DNA of 64,000 nucleotides from Flavobacterium sp. TR2. GTDB taxonomy: Bacteria; Bacteroidota; Bacteroidia; Flavobacteriales; Flavobacteriaceae. The stretch is from NCBI RefSeq assembly GCF_025252405.1, contig NZ_CP104307.1, positions 4,030,001-4,094,000 on the forward strand. Direction: 5' to 3'. Numbering within the stretch: position 1 is the stretch's first letter; every line of letters starts with the position of its first letter. Of the stretch, positions 10,563 through 52,569 are shown piece by piece. Below the pieces are notes generated by a model, which did not search any database, had not been told where the DNA came from, and saw only the letters and a program-made list of their open reading frames with translations. The position numbers and the translations under genes were made by a program.

Positions 10563-10943
10563 AGTATTGTTTTCGGTTTAGGTTAGGTTTGTTAGTAATT
10601 TGGTTTTGTAAAATAAGAGAATGTCAAAAAGAAAACTGTCCTGTACTATCCTTTACGGATTTCATATTTTTTGTTAAAACTAAAGATTATTAGAAATAAC
10701 GGTTTGCAATTATTGGGTAAATAAATTTAAAATGGCTATTTTAGCAATTGATTTCGCAATTATTGATTCTTCATTCGAGCTAAAATTCAGAAATCATAAA
10801 AAAAAGACTACAAGCCTTGTCAATTTCTCTTTTTCATATCGAAAATGATTCTGCTTAACAGATTCTTTTTTAAAGAAGAGATTTTTTTAAAATATTTAGA
10901 ATTAAAAAGAGTCTTGTTGAAATACGAGACAGATTTCCTCAAA
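10563..10943. promoter_or_regulatory. rhaT / gntR divergent control region
   Basis: A 381-base gap between divergent transport and regulator genes. It contains the direct repeat GCAATTATTG at 10706-10715 and 10756-10765, with the related GCAATTGATT at 10744-10753; these are candidate operator half-sites. I found no clean TAnnTTTG box on either strand. No other gene is visible. The operator role is inference from position. Confidence 0.4.
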
Positions 10944-32800: not shown

Positions 32801-32964
32801 TTTTCATTAATGTTTACCCCTGGCAGCGACATACCCGTCGCATCGGTAATCTTCCCTTCAATTGTGGTTGTCTGTGCGTATATAGAACTGCACAGCAAAA
32901 AATTCAGGAAAAAGAAAAATACAAAGTACTTATCTTTTTTCTTAGATAATTGTTTAATACTCAT
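29863..32964 (-). CDS. susC: SusC-family TonB-dependent outer-membrane transporter
   Basis: A 1033-residue protein: signal peptide (to about residue 31), a carboxypeptidase-regulatory-like domain (TTIEGKITDATGMSLPGVNI...SYLGFQTQEV), a TonB-box-like EVVVVGYGSVKK, the plug (NTTSPLEAIQGSTPGVQISS...SPLYIVDGVPVDNIDFLNPQDI...ASSAAIYGSRGASGVIIVTTKSG) and a long barrel ending in a Phe (QLGLSVKF). No N-terminal STN domain is seen, so control through an anti-sigma factor is not expected. It imports oligosaccharides with SusD. It is 30 bases downstream of the GH28 gene stop, with no separate promoter visible. Confidence 0.95.
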   Translation of the reverse strand: MSIKQLSKKKDKYFVFFFFLNFLLCSSIYAQTTTIEGKITDATGMSLPGVNINEKGTKNGTSTDFEGSFKINVSNSKAVLIISYLGFQTQEVSVAGKTKINVSLAEQSNALTEVVVVGYGSVKKTDLTGSVSTISAATITERNTTSPLEAIQGSTPGVQISSASGRAGDGYKVVIRGNNSLVGSSPLYIVDGVPVDNIDFLNPQDISRMDVLKDASSAAIYGSRGASGVIIVTTKSGANVKSGINVTFDTSYGNKTAARMPKMMNGEEWWKFHQVAYMSATPLTQTPAQLAALAGNQSPLLVSRANSGYNFDWTDAVLKPGMTQNNYLNVTGRSDSGLSYNLGFGVQSDEGLIENDSTDKYSFKLGLNHKINDKFTTGANITIARIDTQLGSDLAMQDAFRLSPLMSPWAVDAQGNEKVGTLFFLPGKLTYPDGSWAINKTSTVNPLMEIANSSQTEKTWQTVGNVFFQYQPLKWLSFKTTFAGGIENTVTSAAYTAQTNAGVTLNGKNSASIKNFNNFNYTWDNQIDLKHTFKEVHDFSVLLLQSLYSNVDETSYLYSNNQPFDVGSNNMGSGVQTSYNISSGYQKNTLSSYAVRLNYTFKDKYLLTASTRWDGSSVLSEGNKWQSFPSVALGWKISKESFLANSSVVSDLKLRASLGYTGNDNVAPYTSQALLNQQTFYANGANVVAGWQSENLANQNLTWEKTRELNFGLDYGFLNNRITGTVDVYDRLSDKLIYKQQLPSETGWKNTYANVGSVSNKGVEVLLTTKNIKSKNVNWETTFTFTKNVNKLESIYNQDQVSDIGNKLILGSELNPNYNYVYDGVWQESEAAQAASYGMAPGQARPKDLNNDGKFNQDDRTVIGNANPDWQGSLYSKLTVGNFDFNFSVLTSQGQTVLSTFHQNFADVSDRGRQKLAMDYFIPTNGTGIAANANNEHPRPGPVATGAGAYWTSLFGYYRDVSYVKIKNISLGYTLDSELLKRLKISNLRIYVNVLDPFVFTDFDGYDPEWAGAAFGVNRPASVTTQLGLSVKF

Positions 32965-32994: not shown

Positions 32995-34434
32995 TTAGTT
33001 AGTAATAGATTCTACTTTTTTTTCATTGATGTAGGTATTTATAAAATTTATGTTTTTTACGTTTTTTAATAAATAGAGCGAGTCGACCTTTTCAATTTTT
33101 ACATTTTTCAACGTAATATTCTCGACAGGCGATTCGTTATAGCCTTCTGCCCAAACGCTGTATTTTCCGCCGTTTTTGACAGTCACATTTTCTAAACTTA
33201 CATTTCTGATGGTCGGGATAAAATTTCCTGTCTGCGATCCGTACACATTGTAAAACATATTCAATTTGAGGACACATTCTTTTACGGTTCCCACTTCAAG
33301 GTTTCGGACGTAGACATTTTCAATGATTCCACCTCTTTTCGAATTGGTTTTGATACGAATAGCACGATCCAAATTGGGACTATCCATCACGCAATTTTCT
33401 ACAAAAACATTATTTACTCCTGCAGAAATTTCGCTTCCAATTACAACACCGCCATGCCCATCAATCATTTTGCAGTTTTGCACAATTATATTTTTACTTG
33501 GTATGGCAACTCTTCTTCCGTCTCCGTCGCGTCCTGCTTTAATGGCAATGCAGTCGTCGCCTGTATTGAACGTGCAGTTTCTAATGACAATGTTTTGAGA
33601 ATATTCAGGATCGCAGCCATCATTGTTCGGGCCGTGACTGTTAATCGTCACCCCGTCAATAATCATGTTGTTTGTTTTTATAGGATGCAAAATCCAAAAC
33701 GGAGAATTGATGATTTTTACGTCTTTTACCAAAGCAGTATTGCATTCAAAAAACTCAATAAAGTTTGGCCTTAAGTAACGTCCGTCGCCAAAAACTCTTT
33801 CTGATACCGGTACTCCTTTTTCTGCCATATCAACCAAAACTTCACGGTTTGTCGGGTCATTCTGAGACGGAATTCCTTTTTTCCAACCGTAATTTTTTCC
33901 TCCAGACCAAATCCACCAATTTGTGCTGTCAGCCTGACCGTTTAGCGTTCCTTTTCCTGTAACTGCAATGTTGGTTTTGTTTTTTGCGTAAATAAGAGGA
34001 GAATAATTCATTAGTTCTGTTCCTTCCCAAGAAGTATGCACAATAGGATAGTCTTTCGGATTTAAACTAAAAAGAATCTCAGCATGATCTTCCAAATGCA
34101 GATTCACATTGCTTTCTAAATGAATGGCTCCTGTCAAATATTTTCCGTTTGGAACTAAAACTTTCCCGCCTCCATTTGCAGCACATTCTTGTATCGCCTT
34201 TTGGAAAGCGGAAGTGTTTAACGTTTTTCCGTCAGCAACAGCGCCAAAATCATTGATATTGTAAATTTTATCTGAGAAATGTGTTTGAGGTATGCTTTTA
34301 ACTACCAAATCCATTTTTTGCCATGGATTTTCTGAAGAAATAGCTGAAGAATGTCTTGCACATGATGGCATTAAAAGCCCTAAAACGGCTAGAAAAAGAA
34401 TCTTTTTTGTTGCGACTATCTTATTTGTAATCAT
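32995..34434 (-). CDS. GH28 polygalacturonase-type lipoprotein, first gene of the pectin operon
   Basis: A 479-residue enzyme with a lipoprotein signal (MITNKIVATKKILFLAVLGLLMPSC). GH28 residues are complete: PNNDGCDPEYSQ, TGDDCIAIKAGRDGDG, GHGGVVIGSEISAG, and RIKTNSKRGG. It would hydrolyse polygalacturonate or RG fragments at the cell surface or in the periplasm. I start at 34434, where the signal peptide begins; the ATG at 34464 adds ten residues. The operator palindrome and promoter at 34480-34525 lie just upstream, so this gene leads the transcript with susC and susD. It differs from the second GH28 (17919-19271) by having the canonical RIK motif. Confidence 0.92.
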   Translation of the reverse strand: MITNKIVATKKILFLAVLGLLMPSCARHSSAISSENPWQKMDLVVKSIPQTHFSDKIYNINDFGAVADGKTLNTSAFQKAIQECAANGGGKVLVPNGKYLTGAIHLESNVNLHLEDHAEILFSLNPKDYPIVHTSWEGTELMNYSPLIYAKNKTNIAVTGKGTLNGQADSTNWWIWSGGKNYGWKKGIPSQNDPTNREVLVDMAEKGVPVSERVFGDGRYLRPNFIEFFECNTALVKDVKIINSPFWILHPIKTNNMIIDGVTINSHGPNNDGCDPEYSQNIVIRNCTFNTGDDCIAIKAGRDGDGRRVAIPSKNIIVQNCKMIDGHGGVVIGSEISAGVNNVFVENCVMDSPNLDRAIRIKTNSKRGGIIENVYVRNLEVGTVKECVLKLNMFYNVYGSQTGNFIPTIRNVSLENVTVKNGGKYSVWAEGYNESPVENITLKNVKIEKVDSLYLLKNVKNINFINTYINEKKVESITN

Positions 34435-34479: not shown

Positions 34480-34493
34480 TGTAATCGATTACA
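34480..34493. promoter_or_regulatory. Predicted LacI operator at the GH28-susCD promoter
   Basis: TGTAATCGATTACA, a perfect 14-bp palindrome with the central CG step typical of LacI-family sites. It lies directly downstream of the predicted -7 box (34494-34501, minus strand), over the expected start of transcription, and 46 bases before the ATG. Confidence 0.8.
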
Positions 34494-34525
34494 CGAAAGT
34501 AGAAAAATTGTTCTAAGACACCAAA
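34494..34525 (-). promoter_or_regulatory. Predicted promoter of the pectin operon
   Basis: On the minus strand TTTG (34522-34525), 20-base spacer, TACTTTCG (34494-34501), one mismatch to TAnnTTTG. It abuts the operator at 34480-34493. Confidence 0.65.
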
Positions 34526-34643
34526 TTAATTTAGAAAAAAATTATATATTTAATTTTTATTACAAAATTTAATTACATTTAATGCAAAAAATTAGATAAT
34601 TTATTATCATTGTAGAATCTAAAACGTTTGAATTTTTAAATAC

Positions 34644-34657
34644 GGTAATCGATAACA
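34644..34657. promoter_or_regulatory. Predicted LacI operator upstream of the lacI gene
   Basis: GGTAATCGATAACA matches 12 of 14 positions of the perfect operator at 34480. It lies 27 bases upstream of the lacI -7 box TACTTTTG (34685-34692), consistent with self-control. Confidence 0.6.
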
Positions 34658-34684
34658 ATTTTTATTACATAATGAAAAAAAATG

Positions 34685-34692
34685 TACTTTTG
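34685..34692 (+). promoter_or_regulatory. -7 box of the lacI gene
   Basis: TACTTTTG fits TAnnTTTG and lies 29 bases before the ATG at 34722. A -33 TTTG at the expected distance is not clear. Confidence 0.55.
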
Positions 34693-34721
34693 TCTAAAAT
34701 AATCCGAAAAACTTTTTTTGA

Positions 34722-35750
34722 ATGAGTGAAAAAGTAACTATTTACGATATTGCTGAAAAATTAAACATCACGGCTGCGACAGTTTCTAGAGCGTTAAACA
34801 ACAATCCTAAAATAAAGGAAGCGACGCGCGAGTTGGTTATAAGGACTGCTGCTGAAATGAACTATAAGCAAAATAAATTGGCGCTTGCTTTGAAGAGTGG
34901 CCGAAGTAATAATATCGGAGTTATTGTGCCGCGTATTGACAGTAACTTTTTCGCCTCAGTCATTCGAGGAATTGAAGAAGAGCTTTATCCTCACGGTTAT
35001 CAGGTTATTATCTGCCAAACTCACGAAAGCATTAAAAGAGAAAACGAAAATCTTCACACGCTTGTAGATGCACAAGTTGACGGCATTATGATGTCTGTAA
35101 CGGGTATCTCAGATGAGAACGACAGCGCTTTCAGAAATGTACTGGAGAAAAATGTACCGCTGATCTTTTTTGATAGAAGCAAACACATTGATGGCGTAAG
35201 TTCTGTCACTATCAATGACTTTAAAGGCGGTTATTTAGCTACAAAACATTTAATAGATGAAGGCTGCAGAAATATTGCTCATTTCTCTGGAGACCAATCG
35301 TTAGACATCTTCAAAAACAGGTTTTTAGGATACAAACAGGCGTTATTAGACAACGGATTTACTTTTAACGAAGATTATGTTGTTTTTACCAAAAGTAGCG
35401 TAGACGCTGGTAAAGAAGCAGTTGACAAACTTTTGCAATTGCCAACTCCTCCAGACGCTATTTTTTCTTCGAGTGATTTTGCTGCATTGGGCGCAATACA
35501 AGAATTAAAAGAAAGAAATATCAGCATTCCGAGTGAGTTTTGTGTCGCGGGTTTCAGTAACGAGCCTTTTACTAAATTCATGGAATTATCTATTACATCT
35601 GTAGACCAGTCACCGCTTGAAATGGGAAGAATGTCTGCACGTGTTTTCTTAGAACAGGTTGACAAAACAGATACGATTAAAATTGAAAAAAAGGTCGTGC
35701 TTGCACCAGAATTGCATATTCGTAAATCTTCTACGAGAACAAATTTTTAA
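34722..35750 (+). CDS. LacI-family transcriptional regulator of pectin/uronate genes
   Basis: A 342-residue LacI/GalR protein: N-terminal helix-turn-helix and hinge VTIYDIAEKLNITAATVSRALNNNPKIKEATRELV...ALALKSGRS, then a periplasmic-binding-like sensor domain (NNIGVIVPRIDSNFFASVIRGIEEELYPHGYQVIICQT; FCVAGFSNEPFTKFMELSITSVDQSPLEMG). It lies between the pectin enzyme operon and the uronate pathway genes. Three near-identical operators (34480, 44376, 46026) and one weaker (34644) make it the likely repressor of both blocks. The inducer is probably an uronate pathway intermediate; sequence does not say which. A terminator follows at 35777-35805. Confidence 0.9.
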   Translation: MSEKVTIYDIAEKLNITAATVSRALNNNPKIKEATRELVIRTAAEMNYKQNKLALALKSGRSNNIGVIVPRIDSNFFASVIRGIEEELYPHGYQVIICQTHESIKRENENLHTLVDAQVDGIMMSVTGISDENDSAFRNVLEKNVPLIFFDRSKHIDGVSSVTINDFKGGYLATKHLIDEGCRNIAHFSGDQSLDIFKNRFLGYKQALLDNGFTFNEDYVVFTKSSVDAGKEAVDKLLQLPTPPDAIFSSSDFAALGAIQELKERNISIPSEFCVAGFSNEPFTKFMELSITSVDQSPLEMGRMSARVFLEQVDKTDTIKIEKKVVLAPELHIRKSSTRTNF

Positions 35751-35776
35751 TTTTTTTTTCACCATATAAGTTATAT

Positions 35777-35805
35777 AAGCTCATTTTAGAATGGGCTTTT
35801 TTTTT
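35777..35805 (+). terminator. Terminator of the lacI gene
   Basis: AGCTCATT (35778-35785) pairs with AATGGGCT (35790-35797, one G-U) and is followed by nine T, 27 bases after the stop. Confidence 0.8.
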
Positions 35806-35810
35806 ATGCA

Positions 35811-35972
35811 AGCTTCAGAGGAGCGAAATAGTTATAGCAAAAGATTAGCGGTTACAACATAAAGCTCCAGCGGAGCGACATATTTTTCTGCAACCTAAAT
35901 ATATATCGCTCCGCTGGAGCTTTATTCTCAATGACTAATTGTTATCTATAAATATTTCGCTTCTCCGAAGCT
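35811..35972. repeat. Nested double palindrome (~160 bp)
   Basis: Outer arms AGCTTCAGAGGAGCGAAATA (35811-35830) and TATTTCGCTTCTCCGAAGCT (35953-35972) pair with few mismatches; inner arms ATAAAGCTCCAGCGGAGCGA (35859-35878) and TCGCTCCGCTGGAGCTTTAT (35906-35925) pair perfectly. It fills most of the 356-base gap between convergent lacI and uxaA genes. Confidence 0.8.
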
Positions 35973-35985
35973 TTCTCTAAAAATA

Positions 35986-36011
35986 ATAGACGCACTGCAG
36001 TGCGTCTCTAC
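35986..36011. repeat. 26-bp palindromic repeat, isolated copy
   Basis: ATAGACGCACTGCAGTGCGT followed by CTCTAC, the same family as the copies at 17491-17865 and 19384-19508. Confidence 0.75.
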
Positions 36012-36025
36012 AGATAAATCTAACA

Positions 36026-36055
36026 CAAAAAAAAGACGCACTACATTGTGCGTCT
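36026..36055 (-). terminator. Terminator of uxaA, built from a REP-like stem
   Basis: On the minus strand AGACGCAC (36048-36055) pairs with GTGCGTCT (36034-36041) and runs into a T-run of eight. It lies about 50 bases past the uxaA stop. The stem resembles half of the 26-bp palindromic repeat, so a repeat seems to serve as terminator. Confidence 0.8.
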
Positions 36056-36106
36056 TCTATATAAACCTTTATCACTTTGTCCCTTAAAACCTTTGCACCT
36101 AAAAAA

Positions 36107-37729
36107 CTACAATGAAACTCCTCTTTTCCAAGGAATAAAATCGTTCTGATTTAAAATAGCCGCTTTTGTTTTAATATTACCGCTGGCAACATCAATAATA
36201 AATTCTAACATTTCGTCAGCCATTTCGTCAATTGATTTTTCTCCAGTGATAATTCCACCAGTATCAATATCTATAATGTCAGACATTTTGTTTGCTAACT
36301 GCGTGTTTGATGAAATTTTTACAACCGGAGCAATAGGGTTTCCTGTTGGAGTTCCCAAACCTGTTGTAAACAATACCATATTTGCACCAGAGCCCACCAT
36401 TGCCGTTGTGCATTCTACGTCATTTCCTGGCGTACATAACAACGTAAAGCCTGGTTCGTTAATGTATTCTCCATAATCGAAAACCCCCGTAATTGGCGAT
36501 GTTCCGCCTTTTTTAGCAGCACCAGCCGATTTCATAGCATCTGTAATCAAACCGTCTTTGATATTTCCTGGAGAAGGATTCATATCAAATCCTGAACCTG
36601 CATCAACAACTGTTTTTTCGTACCATTGCATTAAATCTAAGAAACGCTTTCCATCTTTATCATCTATACAACGATTTACTAATTCCTGCTCTACTCCACA
36701 TAATTCAGGAAATTCAGAAAGAATTGTAGTACCTCCTAAAGCCACTAAATGATCAGATAATACTCCCAATGTCGGATTAGCAGAAATTCCAGAGAATCCG
36801 TCAGATCCGCCACATTCTAATCCAATTCTTAATTTAGACAATGGAGCTGGTTCTCTCTTAATTTCGTTTGCTTTTTTGATTGCTTCGAAAGTATCTTTTA
36901 CCACACTGCTCAACATCGTTTCGATAGTCCCGATAGATTGCTGATCGTAAATTAAAACAGGTTTTTTACTGTTTGGATTAATCGCATCTAAAGCTTCTTT
37001 GAAAATTGAAATCTGAAGATTCTGGCATCCCAAACTCAAAACAGTTGCTCCAGCCACGTTTGGGTTGTTAACATACCCCGCCAAAAGTTTAGCTAAACTG
37101 TGCGAATCTTGACGAATTCCGCCGCAGCCGCCTTGGTGTGTGATGAATTTAACTTCGATATTATTAAACAAGTTAGCATCATTTGAAGCTTCTTGATTTC
37201 CTGCTCCGCCAGTTTCTGATTTCACTAAAGAACGCAACAATAACTGATAATCGTTCTCCTTTGGCTTCATCAATTCTTTTTCAAAAATATCTTTTAAGAT
37301 CTCGATGTTTCTGTTTTCACAAAAAACTAATGGAAAAAACAGCCATACATTTTCTGTACCCACCTGTCCATCTTCTCTGTGATAGCCCTGCCACGTTCTG
37401 TCTTTCCATTTATCAACATTAGGAGCTGTCCAGCCAATTGTTTCTGTTTTGCCTGTAACTTTATCACTTTCATGTTTTACGTTAGCAGTAGAAAGCAGTC
37501 CGCCCTTTTCAATTTTAGCACTTGCTTTACCGACCAAAACACCATACATAATGATTCTGTCCCCTACATTAAAAGGAACCATTGCAATCTTATGTTTCAT
37601 TTTTACATCAGACTCTACGGTAATTGATTGTCCTTCAAAATCAATCACTTCGCCTGCAGTAAGATCCACCAAAGCAACCGCAACATTGTCGGTTGGGTGA
37701 ACTTTTATTAATTTTTTCTGCGTTGCCAT
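36107..37729 (-). CDS. uxaA: Altronate dehydratase
   Basis: A 540-residue protein with an N-terminal SAF domain (VHPTDNVAVALVDLTAGEVIDFEG, residues about 10-95) and a C-terminal altronate/galactarate dehydratase domain with GYHREDGQVGTENVW, THQGGCGGIRQDS, GLECGGSDGFSGISANPTLG and TTGLGTPTGNPIAPVVKI. It dehydrates D-altronate to 2-keto-3-deoxygluconate (KDG) in the cytoplasm. It is the last gene of the uronate run, 206 bases after uxaB. The full SAF-plus-catalytic form and length match complete UxaA. Confidence 0.94.
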   Translation of the reverse strand: MATQKKLIKVHPTDNVAVALVDLTAGEVIDFEGQSITVESDVKMKHKIAMVPFNVGDRIIMYGVLVGKASAKIEKGGLLSTANVKHESDKVTGKTETIGWTAPNVDKWKDRTWQGYHREDGQVGTENVWLFFPLVFCENRNIEILKDIFEKELMKPKENDYQLLLRSLVKSETGGAGNQEASNDANLFNNIEVKFITHQGGCGGIRQDSHSLAKLLAGYVNNPNVAGATVLSLGCQNLQISIFKEALDAINPNSKKPVLIYDQQSIGTIETMLSSVVKDTFEAIKKANEIKREPAPLSKLRIGLECGGSDGFSGISANPTLGVLSDHLVALGGTTILSEFPELCGVEQELVNRCIDDKDGKRFLDLMQWYEKTVVDAGSGFDMNPSPGNIKDGLITDAMKSAGAAKKGGTSPITGVFDYGEYINEPGFTLLCTPGNDVECTTAMVGSGANMVLFTTGLGTPTGNPIAPVVKISSNTQLANKMSDIIDIDTGGIITGEKSIDEMADEMLEFIIDVASGNIKTKAAILNQNDFIPWKRGVSL

Positions 37730-37935
37730 AATTAACCTTTGTTCTTTTTGTTTTTCTATTATTTTTAACCTGTTGAGTGATATTACTTTTTCCAGATTTC
37801 ACTCAACAGCTAAACTTAAATCTGTTCAAATTTGCTTTCATCTGTACAAATCTGCGTGAGAAATAGTTCTCGCAGATTTCCGCAGATTAAATTCGATTTT
37901 ATTTGTTGAATAAAACTATTTTTACTCCAACGGAT

Positions 37936-39381
37936 TTATTTTATTCTTTCTTGAAACTTAGCAAAACCAGCTTCAATTCCGTTTGAATCTATTTCTTCCA
38001 AAGCAATCGTAATTGCTCTTGTTAAACCTGGAATTTCAGTTAGATCTTGGTCCCAGAAACCTTTGTTTTGCAATGTCAAACGAGCAATTTTTTCATAATC
38101 ATCAGACTTCCAAAGTCCGTTAAAGAATGCGGTAATATCTTCACCATCTTTAACCGGTAAGCTTTGACCGTTCCAAGTTCCTTTGTAGAAACGAATTAAG
38201 CTCGCTAATGAAAAAGTCAAATTAACAGGCAATTTTTTGTTAGCATTATAATATCCTAATAAACTAGGCAAAACTCTTACTTTGAATTTCGATACAGAAT
38301 TTAATGCAATATCAGCAAGTGCGTGTTTAATAAATGGATTTTTAAATCGGTCCATTACTTCCTCAGAATAGGCCGTAATTTCATTTTTGTCCATATCAAG
38401 AGTTTCACTAATTTCACTAATAACGCTATTTACAAATTTCCCTGTAAAATCTCCGTCAACAGTTTCCATTACTAATTTATTACCATGCAAAAGTGAAAAA
38501 GGAACCATTGCCGTATGCGCACCGTTTAAAATACGAACTTTAATCATTTTAAAAGGACGTATATCATCAACGATTTTTACATTCAAATCTGTTTTATGGA
38601 AAGGCAATTTTGCTTTTAGATCATCCCCACCTTCAATTGCCCAAAGGAAAAAAGGTTCAGCCGCAACAATTAAGTTGTCCTCATAATCTAATTTATTATT
38701 GTATTCTTCAATTTCAGCTCTTGGATATCCAGGGACAATTCTGTCAACCAAAGTACTATGATATGTACAAGCATCTGATACCCAAGTTTTAAATGCATCC
38801 TCTAATTTCCATAAATCAACATATTGCAAAATATATTTTTTAAGCGTTTCAGAGTTATAATCAATTAATTCACACGGAATTATTGTAACTCCTTTAGAAG
38901 CGTCTCCATTAAAATGCTTAAATCTTTCATATAACAAAACCGTCAATTTTGCAGGAAATGACACTGGTGGCTGCATATCTGGAGTATCGCTTTCAATAAA
39001 TTCAATTCCAGCTTCTGTAGTATTAGAAACAATAAACTGAAGTTCTTCTTCTTTAGCTAAAGCCAAATAATTTGCAAATTCAGTATATGGGTTTATCGTT
39101 TTTACAATGTTATTAATTAAGACAATATCTTGTATCTTTTCACCTTTTTTAATTCCGTTCATAAACAAGGTATAAAGACCGTCCTGATCATTAATCATAT
39201 TTACCATACCGTCTTTCAATGGTTGGACTACTGCAATACCGGCATTAAAATCGACTTCTTTATTTAGTTTATCAAAAGCATAATCAACAAAGGCTCTTAA
39301 AAAGTTACCTTCTCCAAACTGAACTACCTTAATTGGCTGTAACTTTTCTAATCCTGTATTTATTCTATTTAATTTTTTCAT
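37936..39381 (-). CDS. uxaB: Tagaturonate reductase
   Basis: A 481-residue mannitol-dehydrogenase-family enzyme: N-terminal VVQFGEGNFLRAFVDYAFDKLN (nucleotide domain), SNTTEAGIEF, and the catalytic C-terminal block KMIKVRILNGAHTAMVPFSLLHG with the conserved Lys and His. UxaB reduces D-tagaturonate to D-altronate with NADH. Its neighbours uxaC and uxaA catalyse the steps before and after, which selects it over fructuronate reductase UxuB. It lies 220 bases downstream of kdgA; that leader contains a hairpin at 39461-39533. Confidence 0.92.
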   Translation of the reverse strand: MKKLNRINTGLEKLQPIKVVQFGEGNFLRAFVDYAFDKLNKEVDFNAGIAVVQPLKDGMVNMINDQDGLYTLFMNGIKKGEKIQDIVLINNIVKTINPYTEFANYLALAKEEELQFIVSNTTEAGIEFIESDTPDMQPPVSFPAKLTVLLYERFKHFNGDASKGVTIIPCELIDYNSETLKKYILQYVDLWKLEDAFKTWVSDACTYHSTLVDRIVPGYPRAEIEEYNNKLDYEDNLIVAAEPFFLWAIEGGDDLKAKLPFHKTDLNVKIVDDIRPFKMIKVRILNGAHTAMVPFSLLHGNKLVMETVDGDFTGKFVNSVISEISETLDMDKNEITAYSEEVMDRFKNPFIKHALADIALNSVSKFKVRVLPSLLGYYNANKKLPVNLTFSLASLIRFYKGTWNGQSLPVKDGEDITAFFNGLWKSDDYEKIARLTLQNKGFWDQDLTEIPGLTRAITIALEEIDSNGIEAGFAKFQERIK

Positions 39382-39460
39382 TTTAAATTTTCTTTAATGC
39401 GTTATAAATAACCATTTATAAACCTTATTTCATTATTTCTGCCTTATAAATTGCAAAAGA

Positions 39461-39533
39461 AACATTACACCCGATTGAGTAAAATAAAGCCGGCTGTGAG
39501 GAATGGCTGGCTCAATTTTTCAAGCGTAATGTT
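39461..39533. repeat. Interrupted hairpin in the uxaB leader
   Basis: AACATTAC (39461-39468) pairs with GTAATGTT (39526-39533), with an inner pair ATTGAG (39474-39479) / CTCAAT (39511-39516) and a central GCCGGC. It lies 80 bases upstream of the uxaB start in the 220-base kdgA-uxaB gap. No T-run follows the stem on the minus strand. Confidence 0.5.
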
Positions 39534-39601
39534 CAATTACAATCTCTAAAAATCTAAAAAAAACTTATAAAATAAGGAGTTAGGCATGATTACCCCTTAA
39601 T

Positions 39602-40270
39602 CTATTTTCTAATATCTTTTATAATGTCAAGAACCTGTTTCACTTTTGCAGTTAGCCCATCGAAGTCTTTCTGGTCTAATATCTCTTTTGAAATTAATTG
39701 CGAACCCAATCCAACACAAGTTGCACCGGCGTTCAGCCATGAAGACAAACTTTCTTTTGTTGGATAAACGCCTCCTGTAGGCATAATATTCGTCCAAGGA
39801 CACGGGCCTTTTATAGCTTTAATAAAGTCTGGTCCGTAAGTGTCGGCTGGAAATAGTTTTACGATTTCACATCCTAATTCTTCTGCTTTTGCTATTTCTG
39901 TCAACGTGCCGCAGCCTGGCGACCAAAGTACTTTTCTTCGATTACAGGCTATAGCTATATCTTCTCTAAATACTGGTGTTACAATAAAATTTGCCCCTAA
40001 ACTCATGTACAAAGAAGCCGAAGCTGCATCTGTAATAGAACCCACTCCTAAAATCATTCCCGGAAGCTCTGCCAAAGCGTATTTATTTAATGCTCCAAAA
40101 ACTTCATGAGCAAAATCGCCTCTGCTTGTAAATTCCATTAATCTGGAACCTCCATCGTAACACGCTTTTAAAACTTTTTTACTTAGTTCAATATCAGAAT
40201 GAAAAAACAACGGAACCATACCGTTTTCTTTCATGGTCTGAGCTACTTCAATTCTTGAATATTTTGCCAT
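39602..40270 (-). CDS. kdgA: KDPG/KDG-type aldolase (2-keto-3-deoxy-6-phosphogluconate aldolase)
   Basis: A 222-residue KDPG/KHG aldolase with LMEFTSRGDFAHEVF, GMILGVGSITDAASASLYMSLGANFIVTPVF, and the Schiff-base lysine in EIVKLFPADTYGPDFIKAIKGPCPW followed by MPTGGVYPTKESLSSWLNAGATCVGLGSQL. It splits KDPG into pyruvate and glyceraldehyde-3-phosphate. It follows kdgK by 10 bases. Length is normal and all key residues are visible. Confidence 0.93.
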   Translation of the reverse strand: MAKYSRIEVAQTMKENGMVPLFFHSDIELSKKVLKACYDGGSRLMEFTSRGDFAHEVFGALNKYALAELPGMILGVGSITDAASASLYMSLGANFIVTPVFREDIAIACNRRKVLWSPGCGTLTEIAKAEELGCEIVKLFPADTYGPDFIKAIKGPCPWTNIMPTGGVYPTKESLSSWLNAGATCVGLGSQLISKEILDQKDFDGLTAKVKQVLDIIKDIRK

Positions 40271-40280
40271 TTTTATTTTT

Positions 40281-41300
40281 TTATCTTGATACTAATGCAG
40301 AACCATCGCCATCAATCATATTTTCAACTTCCTTTAAGGTAACCAAGTTATAATCTCCAGCAATTGTATGTTTCAAACAGCAAGCCGCTACTGCAAAATC
40401 TAGCGCTCTCTGGTTATTATTATACTCCAACAAACCGTAAATTAATCCGCCCATAAAGGCATCTCCACTTCCTACGCGGTCTACAACTGGCGTAACTTCT
40501 TTAACTGCGGCGCTATAAATTGCTTTTCCGTCGTACAAAATTCCACCAATTCTCTGGTGCGAAGCGCTAACAGAATAACGAAGCGTTGTTGCAGCGATTT
40601 TTAGGCTCGGAATCAATTCAAACAATTTATCGTACACTGCCGGAAGCGATTTCTCATCCTGATAATTCGGATTTACTTTAGGAATTCCAAGCATGAAATA
40701 CGCCGTATCGATATCTCCTAAAATCACATTGCTGTATTTTAGCATTTCTGGCATAACCTCGCTTGGAGTTTTTCCGTACTGCCAAAGTTTTGATCTGTAG
40801 TTTAAATCGCAAGAAATTTTAGTTCCTTTTTTATGAGCGACTTTAATTGCTTCTAGACAAGCTTCTGCTGCACTTTCTGAAATCGCTGGCGTAATGCCGC
40901 TCCAATGAAACCATTCTGCACCTTCCAACACGTTTTCCCAATCAACCTGCCCTTTTTGTATTGTCGACATGGCGCTGTGAGCACGATCATAAACAACATT
41001 GCTGCCGCGGGTTCCTGCTCCTGTTTCTAGAAAATAGATTCCTAAACGTTCTCCTCCGTAAACAATGTTTTTAGATTCTACATTCATTTTTCTGATTTCT
41101 TTTAATGCAGAAAAACCAATTTCATTTTCAGGCAGTCTGGTAACAAATTCAGCATTTACACCATAATTAGCCAAAGAAACACATACATTAAACTCTCCGC
41201 CACCATACGTAGCACCAAATGCTGTAGATTGCGAAAAACGCAAATGTCTTTCTGTCGATAAACGCAGCATGATTTCTCCAAATGCAACTACTCTACTCAT
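40281..41300 (-). CDS. kdgK: 2-keto-3-deoxygluconate kinase
   Basis: A 339-residue PfkB-family kinase: N-terminal AFGEIMLRLSTERHLRFSQS...GAT-YGGGEFNVCVSLANYG and C-terminal TPVVDRVGSGDAFMGGLIYGLL, where GSGDAF carries the catalytic Asp. KdgK phosphorylates KDG to KDPG. It lies between uxaC (13-base gap) and kdgA (10-base gap), the expected substrate and product enzymes, so the assignment is firm for a family of broad specificity. Confidence 0.93.
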   Translation of the reverse strand: MSRVVAFGEIMLRLSTERHLRFSQSTAFGATYGGGEFNVCVSLANYGVNAEFVTRLPENEIGFSALKEIRKMNVESKNIVYGGERLGIYFLETGAGTRGSNVVYDRAHSAMSTIQKGQVDWENVLEGAEWFHWSGITPAISESAAEACLEAIKVAHKKGTKISCDLNYRSKLWQYGKTPSEVMPEMLKYSNVILGDIDTAYFMLGIPKVNPNYQDEKSLPAVYDKLFELIPSLKIAATTLRYSVSASHQRIGGILYDGKAIYSAAVKEVTPVVDRVGSGDAFMGGLIYGLLEYNNNQRALDFAVAACCLKHTIAGDYNLVTLKEVENMIDGDGSALVSR

Positions 41301-41313
41301 TGTAAATACTTAA

Positions 41314-42714
41314 TTAAAATTTAAAATATTCTTTAGCGTTGTTGTATGAAATATCAGAAACTAATTTTCCGATCCATTCCATATCATTTGGAAGCTCTCC
41401 TCTTTTGATTTCATCTCCCAAAAGATTACATAAAATACGTCTGAAATATTCGTGTCTTGGAAACGATAAGAAGCTTCTAGAATCTGTCAGCATTCCAACA
41501 AAACAGCTGATTAAGCCCATGTTTGAAAGCGCATTCAATTGTTTTGTCATTCCGTCTTTCTGATCTAAAAACCACCATCCAGAACCAAATTGCACTTTTC
41601 CGCGAACACTTCCGTCGTTAAAGTTTCCAATCATCGTTGCCATAACTTCGTTATCAGCAGGATTTAAGTTATAGATAATCGTTTTTGTCAATTTATCTTT
41701 GCTGTCTAACGCATTCAAGAAGCCAGACAGTTTTTGCGCTTGCGGATAATCTCCTATAGAATCCCATCCTGTATCTGGACCTAAGATTCTGTGCATACGT
41801 GCATTGTTGTTACGCAACGCGCCTAAGTGAAACTGCTGCACCCATCCAAATTCGTGGTAAGTTTCGCATAAGAAAATTAAAACAGCACTTTGGAATTTCA
41901 GCGCTTCTTCTGGAGACAATGCTCCGTTTTCTCTTTTCTTTTTGAAAATCGCGTTGATTTCGCTTTCTGTAAAGTTTTCGAAGTAAATCTGATCCAAACC
42001 GTGGTCACTCAATTTACATCCGTTTGCGTTAAAGAATTCGATTCTTTTTCTTAATGCCGAAAGCAAATCAGCGTACGTGTTAATTGCAATACCGGACACA
42101 TCCCCTAATGTGTCCAGATATGCATTATAACCATCATTAGCAATTAAGATGGCTTTATCAGGTCTGAAAGCCGTACTCATCTTGATTCCAGTCGAATTGT
42201 TAGCGAATTTTTGGTGAAATTCTAACGAGTCGATTGGATCTTCTGTTGTGCAAACTAATTCAGCGTTTACTTTTTTAAGCAGGTTTTGCGTGCTGTACGC
42301 TTGAGAATTTATTTTCTCAGAAGTTTCGATATAAATTTTCTCTGCCGATTTTTCATTCAATAAATCATAAATATCAAAATAACGAGCTAATTCTAAATGT
42401 GTCCAGTGGTACAACGGATTACGCATCGTGTACGGAACTGTTTTTGCCCAGTTTAAGAATTTATCTTTATCTGAACCATTTCCTGTTACAAACTGCTCGT
42501 TGATTCCTAATGTACGCATTGCACGCCATTTGTAGTGATCACCATTGATCCAAACTTGCGTGATATTATCAAAGATTTTATCTTCTGCAATAAACTGTGG
42601 ATTTAGGTGATTATGATAATCAATAATCGGCTGGTTTTTAGAGTAATTGTGGTATAACTCTTCAGCATATTTATTTTCTAATAAAAAATTATCGTGTATG
42701 AATGTCTGGCTCAT
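41314..42714 (-). CDS. uxaC: Uronate isomerase
   Basis: A 466-residue amidohydrolase-fold enzyme with IDYHNHLNPQFIAED (metal-binding His pair), WINGDHYKWRAMRTLGI, VCTTEDPIDSLEFH, QFHLGALRNNNARMHRILGPDTGWDSIGD and the C-terminal MLTDSRSFLSFPRHEYFRRILCNLLGDEIKRGELP. It isomerises D-galacturonate to D-tagaturonate (and D-glucuronate to D-fructuronate). It lies 15 bases after kduD. All motifs of UxaC are present and length is standard. Confidence 0.95.
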   Translation of the reverse strand: MSQTFIHDNFLLENKYAEELYHNYSKNQPIIDYHNHLNPQFIAEDKIFDNITQVWINGDHYKWRAMRTLGINEQFVTGNGSDKDKFLNWAKTVPYTMRNPLYHWTHLELARYFDIYDLLNEKSAEKIYIETSEKINSQAYSTQNLLKKVNAELVCTTEDPIDSLEFHQKFANNSTGIKMSTAFRPDKAILIANDGYNAYLDTLGDVSGIAINTYADLLSALRKRIEFFNANGCKLSDHGLDQIYFENFTESEINAIFKKKRENGALSPEEALKFQSAVLIFLCETYHEFGWVQQFHLGALRNNNARMHRILGPDTGWDSIGDYPQAQKLSGFLNALDSKDKLTKTIIYNLNPADNEVMATMIGNFNDGSVRGKVQFGSGWWFLDQKDGMTKQLNALSNMGLISCFVGMLTDSRSFLSFPRHEYFRRILCNLLGDEIKRGELPNDMEWIGKLVSDISYNNAKEYFKF

Positions 42715-42729
42715 GTCTTTTTAAATAAA

Positions 42730-43521
42730 TTATTCTTCGTTTGAAGGTTTTCCGATCGTAGCTAGAATTCCTCCATCTACATATAAAATGTGACCGTTTA
42801 CAAAATCACTTGCTTTTGATGATAAAAATATTGCTGCTCCTGCCAAATCGCTTGGATCTCCCCATTTTGCGGCAGGCGTTCTGCTGATGATGAAATCGTT
42901 AAACGGATGCCCATCAACTCGAATAGGTTTGGTCTGTTCTGTTGCAAAATAGCCAGGGCCGATTCCGTTAATCTGAACATTGTATTTTGCCCATTCTGTC
43001 GCCATATTTTTAGTCAGCATTTTTAAGCCTCCTTTTGCAGCAGCGTAAGCAGAAACTGTATTTCTTCCCAATTCGCTCATCATAGAACAAATGTTGATGA
43101 TTTTGCCTTGTCTTCTTTCGATCATTCCCTTTGCTACGTGCTTAGAAACAATAAACGGACTTACTAAATCTATATCAACCACTTCTCTGAAATCTGAAAC
43201 TTCCATATCCAAAAGCGGAATTCTTTTAATAATTCCAGCATTATTGATCAAGATATCGATTGGTCCTACTTCGCTTTCAATTTTAGCTACAGCAGCTTTT
43301 ACTTCCTGTTCTTCAGTAACATTAAATTTGTAGCCTACAGCATTTATTCCTTCGCTTTTTAATTCTGCTACGGCATTGTCAATTTTTTCCTGAGAAGAAT
43401 TTCCGTTTACCACAATTATAGCTCCAGCCTGACCCAAACCTTTTGCCATCGCCATCCCCAGTCCGTGCGTGCTTCCTGTGATAAGGGCAACTTTTCCTTT
43501 TATATCAAACAAATTTGTCAT
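42730..43521 (-). CDS. kduD: 2-deoxy-D-gluconate 3-dehydrogenase type SDR, KduD
   Basis: A 263-residue classical SDR: GSTHGLGMAMAKGLGQAGA, LINNAGIIKRIPLLDM, and the active-site YAAAKGGLKMLTKNMATEWA. KduD reduces 2,5-diketo-3-deoxygluconate to KDG. It is separated from kduI by one base, so the two steps are surely co-transcribed. The AIFLSSKASDFVNGHILYVDGGILA tail is normal. Confidence 0.93.
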   Translation of the reverse strand: MTNLFDIKGKVALITGSTHGLGMAMAKGLGQAGAIIVVNGNSSQEKIDNAVAELKSEGINAVGYKFNVTEEQEVKAAVAKIESEVGPIDILINNAGIIKRIPLLDMEVSDFREVVDIDLVSPFIVSKHVAKGMIERRQGKIINICSMMSELGRNTVSAYAAAKGGLKMLTKNMATEWAKYNVQINGIGPGYFATEQTKPIRVDGHPFNDFIISRTPAAKWGDPSDLAGAAIFLSSKASDFVNGHILYVDGGILATIGKPSNEE

Positions 43522-43522
43522 C

Positions 43523-44362
43523 TTATCTTAAATCAGTGATTTTACAAACATCCATATCGCCATAATCTAAGTTTTCACCTGCCATTCCCCAGATAAAAGT
43601 ATAATTGCTGGTTCCTGAGCCCGAATGAATAGACCAAGGCGGAGAAATAACTGCCTGATGGTTGTTCATCCAGATATGCCTTGTTTCCTGCGGCTGCCCC
43701 ATGAAGTGGCAAACTGCCTGATCTTGTGGAATATCCAAATAGAAATACACTTCCATTCTGCGGTCGTGAACGTGTGCTGGCATAGTATTCCAAACACTTC
43801 CCGGTTTTAATTCTGTCATTCCCATCTGCAATTGGCAAGTTGTTACCACACTTCCGATAATCATTTGGTTTACCGTACGGTGATTAGCCGTTTCCATTGT
43901 ACCCAATTGTAATTTATTAGCTTCAGCTAAACTTACTTTCTTCGTAGGGTAAGTGGTATGCGCTGGTGCAGAATTCAAATAGAATTTAGCAGGATTATTT
44001 TTGTCGTCACTTTTAAAAACCACTTCTTTATTTCCAGCTCCGATGTACAAAGCGTCTTTAAAACCTAACTCATAAGTTGTTCCTTCAACCACAACAGAAC
44101 CGCTTCCTCCAACATTGATGATTCCTAACTCTCTGCGCTCTAAAAAATAAGGTGCTTTTAGCGGATCAATCGTTTCTAAAGCCAAATCTCCTTTTACAGG
44201 AACTGCAGAACCTGCAATGTATCTGTCGTAATGAGAATAAACCAATACCACTTCATCTTCCTGCATTAAGTCATCAATTAAGAATTCTTCTCTCAATTGC
44301 TGCGTATCATACTTTTTTACAGCTTCTGGGCTTGACGCGTATCTTGAACTATATTTTGTCAT
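43523..44362 (-). CDS. kduI: 5-keto-4-deoxyuronate isomerase
   Basis: A 279-residue cupin: SRYASSPEAVKKYDTQQLREEFL at the N-terminus, and the metal site PAHVHDRRMEVYFYLDIPQDQAVCHFMGQPQETRHIWM followed by AVISPPWSIHSGSGTSNYTFIWGM. KduI isomerises 5-keto-4-deoxyuronate, the product of pectin lyases and GH105 enzymes, to 2,5-diketo-3-deoxygluconate. It is the first gene of the kduI-kduD-uxaC-kdgK-kdgA run, with the operator and -7 box at 44376-44397 just upstream. Confidence 0.95.
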   Translation of the reverse strand: MTKYSSRYASSPEAVKKYDTQQLREEFLIDDLMQEDEVVLVYSHYDRYIAGSAVPVKGDLALETIDPLKAPYFLERRELGIINVGGSGSVVVEGTTYELGFKDALYIGAGNKEVVFKSDDKNNPAKFYLNSAPAHTTYPTKKVSLAEANKLQLGTMETANHRTVNQMIIGSVVTTCQLQMGMTELKPGSVWNTMPAHVHDRRMEVYFYLDIPQDQAVCHFMGQPQETRHIWMNNHQAVISPPWSIHSGSGTSNYTFIWGMAGENLDYGDMDVCKITDLR

Positions 44363-44375
44363 AATTTTAAATTAA

Positions 44376-44389
44376 TGTAATCGATTGCA
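44376..44389. promoter_or_regulatory. Predicted LacI operator at the kduI promoter
   Basis: TGTAATCGATTGCA differs by one base from the perfect operator at 34480. It is directly downstream of the -7 box on the minus strand, 14 bases before the ATG at 44362. Confidence 0.78.
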
Positions 44390-44397
44390 CAAAATTA
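44390..44397 (-). promoter_or_regulatory. -7 box of the kduI operon
   Basis: TAATTTTG on the minus strand fits TAnnTTTG and abuts the operator; the -33 element is weak. Confidence 0.55.
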
Positions 44398-44460
44398 TAT
44401 TTTTATATTTAAATAGCATAATTGAAAACGAAAAAATGTTTCAATTCTGTTCATTTTTCT

Positions 44461-45927
44461 TTATAAATCGGTTATTGGACTGTATTTTGGCACTAGAGAT
44501 TTCATTACAATCCAGCCCGTTAAGTAACAAACCGCACAAATTGAGAAAATGATAAAATATCCAGCCTCAATTCCTTTAAATCCCATAAAAACCATATTAG
44601 TATCCTTTGCGTAATCAAACAATACTCCAGACCCTTTATTAATCAATGTTGAGCCAATTCCTCCTGCTAAACCTCCAATTCCTGTAATGGTCGCAATTGC
44701 TTTTTTAGGAAACATATCGCCAACTGTAGTAAAAATATTTGCTGACCATGATTGGTGAGCCGCTCCTGCGATTCCGATAATAATTACGGGAACCCAGTAG
44801 CTGATATATCCTAATGGCTGTGCGATTAAAGCCAATAATGGGAAAAATGCAAAAATCAGCATCGCTCTCATTCTTCCTTCGTACGGATTCATTCCTTTTT
44901 TCTCTACAAAATATGTTGGCAGCCAGCCTCCAATAATAGACAATAATGTAATCATGTACAGTACAAACAATGGCAATGCGGCTTCTGTAGAATCCATTCC
45001 GTAAACCGAACTTAAATAAGCAGGAGTCCAAAATAAGAAGAACCACCAAACACCATCGGTCATAAATTTTCCAAAAGCAAAAGCCCAAGTTTGTTTGTAT
45101 TTAAAGCAATCTGCCAAAGACACTTTTCCTTTAGCTTCAGGTTTAAAACCTATTTTACTATCTTCAATATCATCCTGCTGAATATAAGCCAATTCTTCTG
45201 GCGTTACTTTTGAATGCTTTTCTGGCTTATCGTACATAAACATCCAAAATCCCATCCAAACAAATCCTAATGCCCCAATGATGATAAATGACATTTCCCA
45301 ACCGAAATATTTTGCAATAAAAGGAATTGTAACTGGCGCCGCTAAAGCTCCAACTGTAGCACCTGCATTAAAAATGCTAGTGGCAAAAGCCCTGTCTTTT
45401 TTAGGAAAATATTCTGCTGTAGTTTTAATTGCCGCAGGAAAGTTTCCAGCTTCTCCAACCGCTAAAACGAAACGGGCAAAAATAAATAAAGCCACACTCA
45501 CATTGATTACCAACGCTGTATCGCTTATTGTACTGATTATTTCTTTTGAGCCATGAAAACTCACAAACCATTCTCCCGCAATAATCCCTGAAGTAGCAAT
45601 ACCGCAGAATGCATGAAGACAAGCTCCAACTGACCAGATTCCGATTGCCCAAAGAAATCCTCTTTTAGTATCCAGCCAATCTACAAATCGCCCGGCAAAC
45701 AATAATGACACTGCATAAAATATAGAAAACAAGGCCGTTATGTTTCCGTAATCATTATTGGTCCAATGAAATTCTGGCGCAATAAAATCACTCCAAGTTA
45801 AAGAAAGCACCTGTCGATCCAAGTAATTGATTGTGGTTGCAAAGAACAGCAAGGCACAAATACTCCAACGGTATTTTCCTGTGGTTTTGGCGCTCTGATT
45901 TACTGCAACGGTTTCGGTTTGATTCAT
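44461..45927 (-). CDS. exuT: MFS hexuronate transporter
   Basis: A 488-residue major-facilitator protein with about twelve hydrophobic segments and the ExuT/anion-cation-symporter look: RWSICALLFFATTINYLDRQVLSLTW, ALFSIFYAVSLLFAGRFVDWLDTKRGF, VLAVGEAGNFPAAIKTTAEYFPKKDRAFATSIFNAGATVGAL. It would import galacturonate and other hexuronates across the inner membrane. It has its own operator and a textbook promoter at 46026-46070, separate from the kduI promoter. It stands 98 bases upstream of kduI. Confidence 0.92.
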   Translation of the reverse strand: MNQTETVAVNQSAKTTGKYRWSICALLFFATTINYLDRQVLSLTWSDFIAPEFHWTNNDYGNITALFSIFYAVSLLFAGRFVDWLDTKRGFLWAIGIWSVGACLHAFCGIATSGIIAGEWFVSFHGSKEIISTISDTALVINVSVALFIFARFVLAVGEAGNFPAAIKTTAEYFPKKDRAFATSIFNAGATVGALAAPVTIPFIAKYFGWEMSFIIIGALGFVWMGFWMFMYDKPEKHSKVTPEELAYIQQDDIEDSKIGFKPEAKGKVSLADCFKYKQTWAFAFGKFMTDGVWWFFLFWTPAYLSSVYGMDSTEAALPLFVLYMITLLSIIGGWLPTYFVEKKGMNPYEGRMRAMLIFAFFPLLALIAQPLGYISYWVPVIIIGIAGAAHQSWSANIFTTVGDMFPKKAIATITGIGGLAGGIGSTLINKGSGVLFDYAKDTNMVFMGFKGIEAGYFIIFSICAVCYLTGWIVMKSLVPKYSPITDL

Positions 45928-46025
45928 AGTAAGTGGGTATTATAGTTTTTGTAAATTTTGGTAATCTTAAAAGGCTACATTTACCGCTTTAAAATCAATA
46001 AATTACCACCTTAAAAGAAAAATAA

Positions 46026-46039
46026 TGTAATCGATTGCA
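46026..46039. promoter_or_regulatory. Predicted LacI operator at the exuT promoter
   Basis: TGTAATCGATTGCA, identical to the kduI operator, directly downstream of the exuT -7 box on the minus strand. The 398-base gap (45928-46325) also separates exuT from a divergent esterase gene. Confidence 0.78.
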
Positions 46040-46070
46040 CAAATATAGTTTTTAATCTGTACAATCCAAA
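46040..46070 (-). promoter_or_regulatory. Promoter of exuT
   Basis: On the minus strand TTTG (46067-46070), a 19-base spacer, and TATATTTG (46040-46047): an exact fit to the Bacteroidota -33/-7 pattern. The operator begins at the next base. Confidence 0.8.
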
Positions 46071-48767: not shown

Positions 48768-48790
48768 AATGGGATAGATAAATAGGATAA

Positions 48791-48830
48791 ATAAAAAAAC
48801 CGCAAGCCCCGATAAAATAAGGACTTACGG
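48791..48830 (-). terminator. Terminator-like stem between the DUF4374 and PepSY genes
   Basis: On the minus strand CCGTAAGTCC (48821-48830) pairs, using G-U, with GGGCTTGCGG (48800-48809) and is followed by a run of seven T. It lies inside the presumed operon, 10 bases after the DUF4374 stop. Confidence 0.65.
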
Positions 48831-48839
48831 CAAAAAAAA

Positions 48840-50066: not shown

Positions 50067-50092
50067 TGTATTATGGTGTTTGTATTAAAAAT

Positions 50093-52483: not shown

Positions 52484-52518
52484 ATCTTTAATTAGACTAA
52501 TTATAAATAACTTTGCTG

Positions 52519-52526
52519 CAAAAGTA
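52519..52526 (-). promoter_or_regulatory. -7 box of the TonB receptor operon
   Basis: TACTTTTG on the minus strand fits TAnnTTTG in the 86-base gap between receptor and divergent AraC gene; the -33 element is not clear, as is common for regulator-dependent promoters. Confidence 0.5.
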
Positions 52527-52569
52527 CCATCAACGCCTTCAAAAAGGATAGGGAAAAACGGATTATATT

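Follow-up and report, generated by a model that had tools for sequence, protein, structure and literature searches.

Uronate catabolism in Bacteroidota has been linked to LacI-family regulators before. In Bacteroides, KdgR (BT0487) and UxaR (BT0824) were predicted by comparative genomics to be LacI-family regulators of uronate catabolism, and the parts of these reports cited here describe a KdgR regulon in which only few genes encode periplasmic or extracellular proteins (PMC3878776, PMC4052901). As far as the cited sections go, Bacteroides rhamnogalacturonan polysaccharide utilization loci (PULs) with a predicted motif were assigned to hybrid two-component system (HTCS) regulators (PMC3878776). 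Here, we have analyzed a window of 64,000 nucleotides within the 5.1 Mb genome of Flavobacterium sp. TR2 (G000:C1:4030001-4094000), which contains a gene for a LacI-family regulator of 342 aa (34722..35750, forward strand), genes for pectin import and uronate metabolism, and several copies of a palindromic 14-mer. An earlier note, made from the sequence of the window, had proposed that this one LacI protein joins surface breakdown to the intracellular uronate pathway through the palindrome. The sites that it described are confirmed, and the predicted regulon extends beyond what could be seen from the window. We consider it very likely that the protein is a local repressor of a pectin regulon, which would act via operators of the form TGYAATCGATTRCA placed at predicted transcription starts with zero spacing from the promoter box. 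This reading rests on sequence, namely on the sites, their fixed geometry, their conservation, their co-occurrence with LacI and the genes that they precede, and from these we infer the dimer, its binding, repression, the operon extents and the effector.

The operator was searched for as TGTAATCGATTACA and, more loosely, as the palindrome TGYAATCGATTRCA, and noise was estimated with shuffles in the window and with the reversed pattern in the whole genome and across genomes. In the window, an exact match was found at 34480, TGTAATCGATTGCA at 44376 and at 46026 differed from the pattern by one base each, and GGTAATCGATAACA at 34644 differed by two (12 of 14 positions identical), which agrees with the four positions and mismatch counts given in the earlier note. 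With up to three mismatches, 13 matches were present against 4.35 expected from shuffles; a three-mismatch match at 34426 overlaps the start codon of the GH28 gene described below. On the scale of the genome, eight places lay within one mismatch of TGTAATCGATTACA, compared with two for the reversed pattern: exact copies at 177745, 1244966 and 4064480, copies reading TGTAATCGATTGCA at 3070808, 4074376 and 4076026, and places with other changes at 1153011 and 2883488. Six of the eight precede pectin or uronate genes, one is ambiguous and one is coding, so that the 14-mer is not randomly scattered. Beyond the window, the copy at 177745 lies upstream of genes for SusC (1102 aa), SusD (600 aa) and, next to these, a DUF4957/DUF5123 protein, that at 1244966 upstream of a 950-aa pectate lyase (PL1) with CBM77 and a tail for the type IX secretion system (T9SS), and that at 3070808 upstream of a 438-aa pectate lyase (PL1) with a type IX tail. 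The ambiguous place (CGTAATCGATTACA at 2883488; L019:4989-5002) lies between a pectate lyase gene, whose start is 159 bp off, and a gene for a cyclic nucleotide monophosphate (cNMP)-binding protein; either could be its target, because the box adjoining it is imperfect (TATTTTTA, with one deviating base) and faces the cNMP gene rather than the lyase gene. If real, this site would tie the regulon to a Crp-like regulator. The place at 1153011, at the start of the ribosomal L25 gene, was rejected as a coding coincidence. When two mismatches were allowed, the genome had 47 places and the reversed pattern 27; much of this yield is thus noise, and two-mismatch places were therefore not used to add targets.

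The six sites that precede pectin or uronate genes share a fixed promoter geometry. Each is of the form TGYAATCGATTRCA and directly follows a predicted sigma-A -7 box at zero spacing, five with an exact TAnnTTTG and one with TACTTTCG. A composite of TANNTTTG and TGYAATCGATTRCA matched the genome five times exactly and once with a single mismatch, and these matches are the six targets (seven further matches had two or three mismatches, and the reversed control gave one). In the window, all three composites lie on the reverse strand. Operator 1 (TGTAATCGATTACA, 34480..34493) abuts TACTTTCG (34494..34501) at the predicted start of a GH28-susC-susD operon, the operator TGCAATCGATTACA at 44376..44389 abuts TAATTTTG (44390..44397) at that of kduI, and TGCAATCGATTACA at 46026..46039 abuts TATATTTG (46040..46047) at that of a gene for an exuT-like transporter of the major facilitator superfamily (MFS); the predicted transcription starts are 34489, 44385 and 46035, respectively. 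Thus, the order of box and operator that had been claimed for these three promoters was recovered at each of them, with zero spacing. The geometry recurred in nine divergent Flavobacterium genomes, in which TAnnTTTG directly adjoined one side of 39 of 58 exact operators, each of the other distances up to 39 bp accounted for at most two boxes, and about 0.1 would be expected from the box background of 0.00084 per position and strand. The genes behind abutting boxes in divergent genomes (labels based on blastp against the proteins of the present genome, or on Pfam) included GH28, PL1, PL1-CBM77, SusC, PL10 or CE8-like, GH105, exuT-like MFS, kduI and uxaB, as well as uxaC in L255. Operators at uronate genes, as is typical of KdgR-type regulators, were found both here (kduI and the exuT-like gene) and elsewhere (uxaB, kduI and exuT-like genes).

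The geometry also bears on how the regulator would act. In F. psychrophilum, the cited part of one study places the TAnnTTTG -7 box at -12 to -5 (PMC9723704), and an operator abutting such a box would therefore cover about -4 to +10. Thus, the promoter position that had been taken as that of a road-block repressor was upheld, but the mode should read occlusion of initiation at the start site rather than a block of elongation. An operator that abuts the box and overlaps the predicted start, as in six of six cases here (one of them with a box mismatch) and in the 39 of 58 elsewhere, normally means repression, and it is against this arrangement that an activating or dual role of LacI, instead of pure repression, has to be judged. 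Such a role would be compatible with operator 2 (GGTAATCGATAACA, 34644..34657, forward strand), which, counted from the start predicted for lacI, lies at about -53 to -40 and is suitably placed for activation, and with the nearest solved relative being CcpA, which can act as an activator or dual regulator. We regard this role as quite unlikely.

The start-site operators are conserved. The 80 best named relatives of the LacI protein (87-98% identity; Flavobacterium, Flavobacteriaceae and one [Flexibacter] sp.) place the genome close to F. tistrianum, F. nitrogenifigens and F. anhuiense; an orthologue is also present in F. johnsoniae CI04 (L169). Of these 80 relatives, 78 were compared upstream of lacI (L155 and L172, with too little DNA before the gene, were left out) and 77 on the kduI side (L118, L119 and L182, with too little DNA after it, were left out). 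The operators of related genomes were intact in both comparisons: all 78 have TGTAATCGATTACA and a TAnnTTCG box upstream of GH28, and all 77 have TGTAATCGATTGCA and a TAnnTTTG box upstream of a kduI-like start (at least 14 of the first 20 residues matching KduI). It should be noted that the box proposed earlier for the GH28 promoter is present, but that its sequence is TAnnTTCG in all relatives compared and not TAnnTTTG; this form is perhaps a conserved, weaker promoter variant. In a 79-sequence alignment of the lacI-GH28 region, 13 of the 14 columns of operator 2 are invariant and the first base is kept in 88%. The 12-of-14 match that had been pointed out before lacI is therefore a real second element, despite the noise at two mismatches. 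One close relative (G006) has a seventh site, before another GH28 gene.

The LacI protein exceeds the cut-offs of Pfam LacI (47.8 bits) and Peripla_BP_1 (112.5 bits) and also matches Peripla_BP_3; an N-terminal helix-turn-helix, a periplasmic-binding-protein-like sensor and the central-CG palindrome TGYAATCGATTRCA place it in the LacI/GalR family. Its best PDB matches are CcpA chains (3oqm, 1rzr and 1zvv; residues 5-337 of 342), and its score with the CcpA equivalog model TIGR01481 is 184.5 versus a cut-off of 442.35. Orthologues (E <= 1e-95, at least 57% identity) were identified in 47 of 150 sampled Flavobacterium genomes. Exact TGYAATCGATTRCA was present in 46 of these 47 (275 sites), compared with 9 of the 103 orthologue-free genomes, which have one site each; the reversed pattern gave 13 matches in all 150 genomes together, and its rate of 0.087 per genome equals that of the motif in the LacI-negative set. 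In a family-wide sample of 249 genomes, the motif was found in 32 of 37 orthologue-bearing genomes versus 11 of 212 others. The LacI-negative genomes with the motif thus number 20 (9 Flavobacterium and 11 from the family sample), and among 11 loci read in them, nine sites lie inside open reading frames (ORFs), one (in G307) lies beside a PL10-like gene and one has no called ORF; none of these 11 sites has a box with at least five of six matches.

Such co-occurrence could in principle reflect shared ancestry of the pathway, the palindrome being bound by a paralogous LacI or an unrelated factor. The genome has seven LacI genes, 46 of the 47 LacI-positive genomes have kduI, and G307 has sites and no detected orthologue, all of which would fit another regulator. 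However, in eight genomes (G002, G026, G028, G035, G085, G105, G116 and G137) kduI is present and the orthologue is not; the motif is absent in seven of them and occurs once in G116, so that the operator tracks LacI rather than the pathway. Moreover, only the 34722-35750 protein has the TAATVSR recognition helix (ITAATVSRAL in full), from which the six paralogues differ, and 108 of 132 upstream regions of lacI carriers have a site within two mismatches in 600 bp. We therefore consider binding by another regulator very unlikely. The two positions before TVS in the helix are AA in 127 of the 132 carriers (exceptions: L286, L341, L355, L373 and L395). None of 15 distant xxSTVSR homologues had a site within two mismatches of TGTAATCGATTACA in 450 bp upstream (L295, L297, L300 and L305 were left out of this reading), and three of them had a site at two mismatches of the looser TGYAATCGATTRCA in 500 bp. 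No site within two mismatches was found upstream of L286, a 60% identical homologue with SVATVSR, or in 600 bp upstream of the tandem second lacI copies L396 and L397 (G059 and G065; 81 and 83% identical). Separately, CGCAACCGATTGCA at G000:C1:4322104, with a near-box (composite at three mismatches), lies about 1 kb from a LacI paralogue at 4323115-4323252 and is possibly the own operator of that paralogue, whose helix is ATSTISRAL.

The fixed spacing from the -7 box and the location at the predicted transcript start might also be expected if the palindrome were an extended promoter or 5' untranslated region (UTR) element and not a protein operator. Operator 2, however, has the same core 164 bp off, away from the box, the motif falls to chance level where the regulator is missing, and palindromes with a central CG are of the LacI type; this explanation is hardly credible. 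Taken together, the co-occurrence, the kduI control and the recognition helix support the proposal of the earlier note that the 34722-35750 protein would link surface breakdown with the uronate genes.

Several observations weigh against the view of LacI as the local repressor of this regulon. In the nine divergent genomes, 19 of the 58 sites have no exact abutting box, two of the box-less sites lying before uxaC (L218 and L233), and several in G147 adjoining genes with no evident role in pectin use; some box-less sites of G147, next to genes for surface proteins, may be unrelated to the regulon. One orthologue-bearing Flavobacterium genome (G060) has no exact motif and one palindrome with two mismatches upstream of lacI, 5 of the 37 orthologue-bearing genomes of the family sample are without the motif, and 24 of the 132 lacI upstream regions have no site within two mismatches in 600 bp. 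The co-occurrence in the 150 genomes has a Fisher p of 2.7e-28, which is not corrected for kinship. In G307, five exact operators were found and no LacI orthologue was detected at E 1e-100. Several of the G307 operators (L266, L313 and L314) lie near pectin-type genes, and G650 and G739 of the same genus do carry the orthologue. As to expression, the cited parts of two reports state that one pectate lyase and the product of another tonB gene of F. johnsoniae increased at the protein level and not in mRNA (PMC8056085), and that growth of Gramella flava on pectin induced genes for polygalacturonase and uronate use and not the susCD of the pectin PUL (PMC5306329).

Operator 2 and operator 1 form a conserved pair between divergent promoters. 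Operator 2 ends 27 bp before the predicted TAnnTTTG box of lacI (TACTTTTG, 34685..34692, forward strand), whose columns are near-invariant. In the close relatives, the spacing between the starts of the two operators is 164 bp in 66 of 78, 163 in 8 and 165 in 4, whereas the stretch from operator 2 to the lacI start, although shorter, varies from 77 to 85. For a phasing analysis, 59 of the 132 upstream regions were used, namely those with operator 1, its box at five or more of six matches, and operator 2 (the other 73 were left out). They fell into 20 alignable sets, with medians (the larger value for pairs) of 130, 148, 164, 174, 174, 176, 180, 184, 184, 185 (six times), 186, 186, 195, 201 and 228. 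The dominant spacings were 164, 173-176, 183-186 and 195-197 bp; one alignable set comprises 173, 174, 185, 186 and 197, and in another 164 and 185 occur together. Such steps, each close to a helical turn, suggest, without proving, a phased loop, and R was 0.587 at 10.5 bp (jitter p 0.00175, or 0.00125 as the best of 10-11.5 bp, with shared ancestry ignored). On the other side, R was flat (0.48-0.64 for all periods from 9.5 to 12), it was 0.345 on 12 unique values, and spacings of 148, 180 and 201 miss the phase by roughly half a turn, all of which argue against phasing.

The match to CcpA chains over residues 5-337 of 342 presumably leaves no room for a LacI-type tetramerisation tail, and looping would thus need contacts between dimers as in GalR. 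In the Gal repressosome, as described in the cited part of one report, GalR and HU form a 113-bp loop that depends on helical arrangement (PMC4693257). The likeness lies in two operators for one protein of the LacI/GalR family; unlike that system, the operators here are 164, 174, 185 or 196 bp apart between divergent promoters, and the loop is hypothetical. We consider it possible but rather doubtful that the lacI/GH28-susCD operators would form a helically phased repression loop similar to the GalR repressosome, with single start-site operators in the rest of the regulon and LacI in place of HTCS sensing.

In the mechanism that we propose, a LacI dimer would bind TGYAATCGATTRCA at zero spacing from the sigma-A -7 box and, spanning about -4 to +10, would occlude transcription initiation. 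Its targets would be the GH28-susCD operon, kduI together with the uronate genes that follow, the exuT-like gene, the second susCD, the two T9SS PL1 lyases and, possibly, the third pectate lyase or the adjacent cNMP-binding gene, and lacI itself would be controlled through operator 2. Upon entry of pectin fragments, an intracellular uronate intermediate would free the repressor. The route for lyase products (kduI) and that for galacturonate (the exuT-like transporter and uxaCBA) converge at 2-keto-3-deoxygluconate (KDG), which makes KDG the first candidate for the inducer; judged from pathway logic, its chances are about even, and 2-keto-3-deoxy-6-phosphogluconate (KDPG) or a uronate from an earlier step are the alternatives. 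Once induced, the kinase encoded downstream of kduI would lower KDG. In F. johnsoniae, a TonB/Sus pair that was mapped to one operon with a polygalacturonase was raised 60-100-fold in mRNA on pectin according to the cited part of the report (PMC8056085). This would fit, the operon having the same kind of gene content as GH28-susCD, as compared by content and not by gene identity.

The genes behind the three promoters of the window are all on the reverse strand. The first gene of the GH28-susC-susD operon (32995..34434, Pfam Glyco_hydro_28) is polygalacturonase-like; it starts with ATG at 34434 (the mechanical ORF begins at TTG 34464), and its best NCBIfam match, below the cut-off, is alpha-D-galacturonidase BT4155. 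It is followed by SusC (29863..32964; Pfam Plug, with TIGR04056 above the cut-off) and SusD (28177..29850; Pfam SusD_RagB). The kduI gene (43523..44362; NCBIfam NF002091 above the cut-off) encodes 5-keto-4-deoxyuronate isomerase, and the genes after it (36107..43521; Pfam and NCBIfam) encode a short-chain dehydrogenase/reductase (SDR), UxaC, a KDG-kinase-like PfkB protein, KDPG aldolase, UxaB (tagaturonate reductase) and an UxaA-like (altronate-dehydratase-like) protein. The SDR, which is in the KduD position, passed the NCBIfam cut-off for gluconate 5-dehydrogenase and remained below those of the KduD models. Strand and order suggest that kduI through uxaA-like would form one operon, with gaps of about 220 and 205 bp ahead of uxaB and uxaA. 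The MFS gene (44461..45927; Pfam MFS_1) had no NCBIfam model above the cut-off and likely encodes a hexuronate transporter, the substrate being assigned from context.

Some further observations were made around these genes. Downstream of lacI, an intergenic inverted repeat (35850-35930) with arms around AAAGCTCCAGCGGAGCGA resembles, by eye, a dispersed repeat. Beside the pectin genes, genes for PepSY_TM and DUF4374 proteins, a TonB receptor and an AraC regulator (47346-53601) are perhaps an iron or metal uptake unit. A regulator of GntR/Peripla_BP_3 make-up lies beside rhamnose genes (10845-11990), and the window scan lists no operator match near it; in G111, an operator with an abutting box lies before a GntR/Peripla_BP_3 regulator gene (L217:3573). 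In G091, an operator with an abutting TAnnTTTG box lies before the gene for fructose-1,6-bisphosphatase (L228:3526), which would couple gluconeogenesis to growth on pectin there.

If the proposed control is true, one intracellular signal would free secreted lyases, surface import and uronate catabolism together. It would allow a gene-by-gene prediction of how pectin genes are switched on in Flavobacterium, at variance with the model centred on HTCS regulators that the cited part of one work gives for Bacteroides rhamnogalacturonan (PMC3878776), and it offers a candidate explanation for the pectin-induced PUL proteins reported, in the part cited, for F. johnsoniae (PMC8056085). With the composite TAnnTTTG-TGYAATCGATTRCA, candidate members of the regulon can be picked out in other genomes of the group, and the element may be of use as an inducible promoter. 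Searches among open-licence PMC papers brought up no account of the operator or of its regulon, supplements, RegPrecise and subscription papers being outside their scope.

LacI-family uronate repressors are already known, Bacteroides included, and the kind of system is therefore familiar. Like Bacteroides KdgR and UxaR, the regulator belongs to the LacI family of a member of Bacteroidota and is associated with catabolism of glucuronate, galacturonate or KDG; unlike them, as compared by description, its operator also lies at susCD PULs and secreted lyases. Homologues outside the order are 39-48% identical, except for one of 63% (G545). The KdgR proteins of Bacillus subtilis and of gammaproteobacteria, the latter of the IclR family, are repressors that couple pectin products (KDG) to uronate genes, and in contrast with the present system they are not known to involve T9SS lyases, SusCD or the -7 box of Bacteroidota. 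CcpA is the best PDB match of the LacI protein and has in common with it the ATVSR helix and a cre-like palindrome with a central CG; it differs in its global catabolite control, and its equivalog cut-off is not reached here. In Bacteroides, the GntR-type ManR was predicted to govern glycan degradation outside the cell along with SusCD and central catabolism, as stated in the cited part of the report (PMC3878776). One regulator thus spans surface and central catabolism there as well, with a different family, substrate and operator. Compared with these systems, what is new is the scope, in that a single operator stands before secreted lyases, two susCD loci and uronate genes alike, further the zero-spaced element of operator and box, which the genus has retained and which also occurs in other genera of the family, and finally the conserved pair of operators at lacI.

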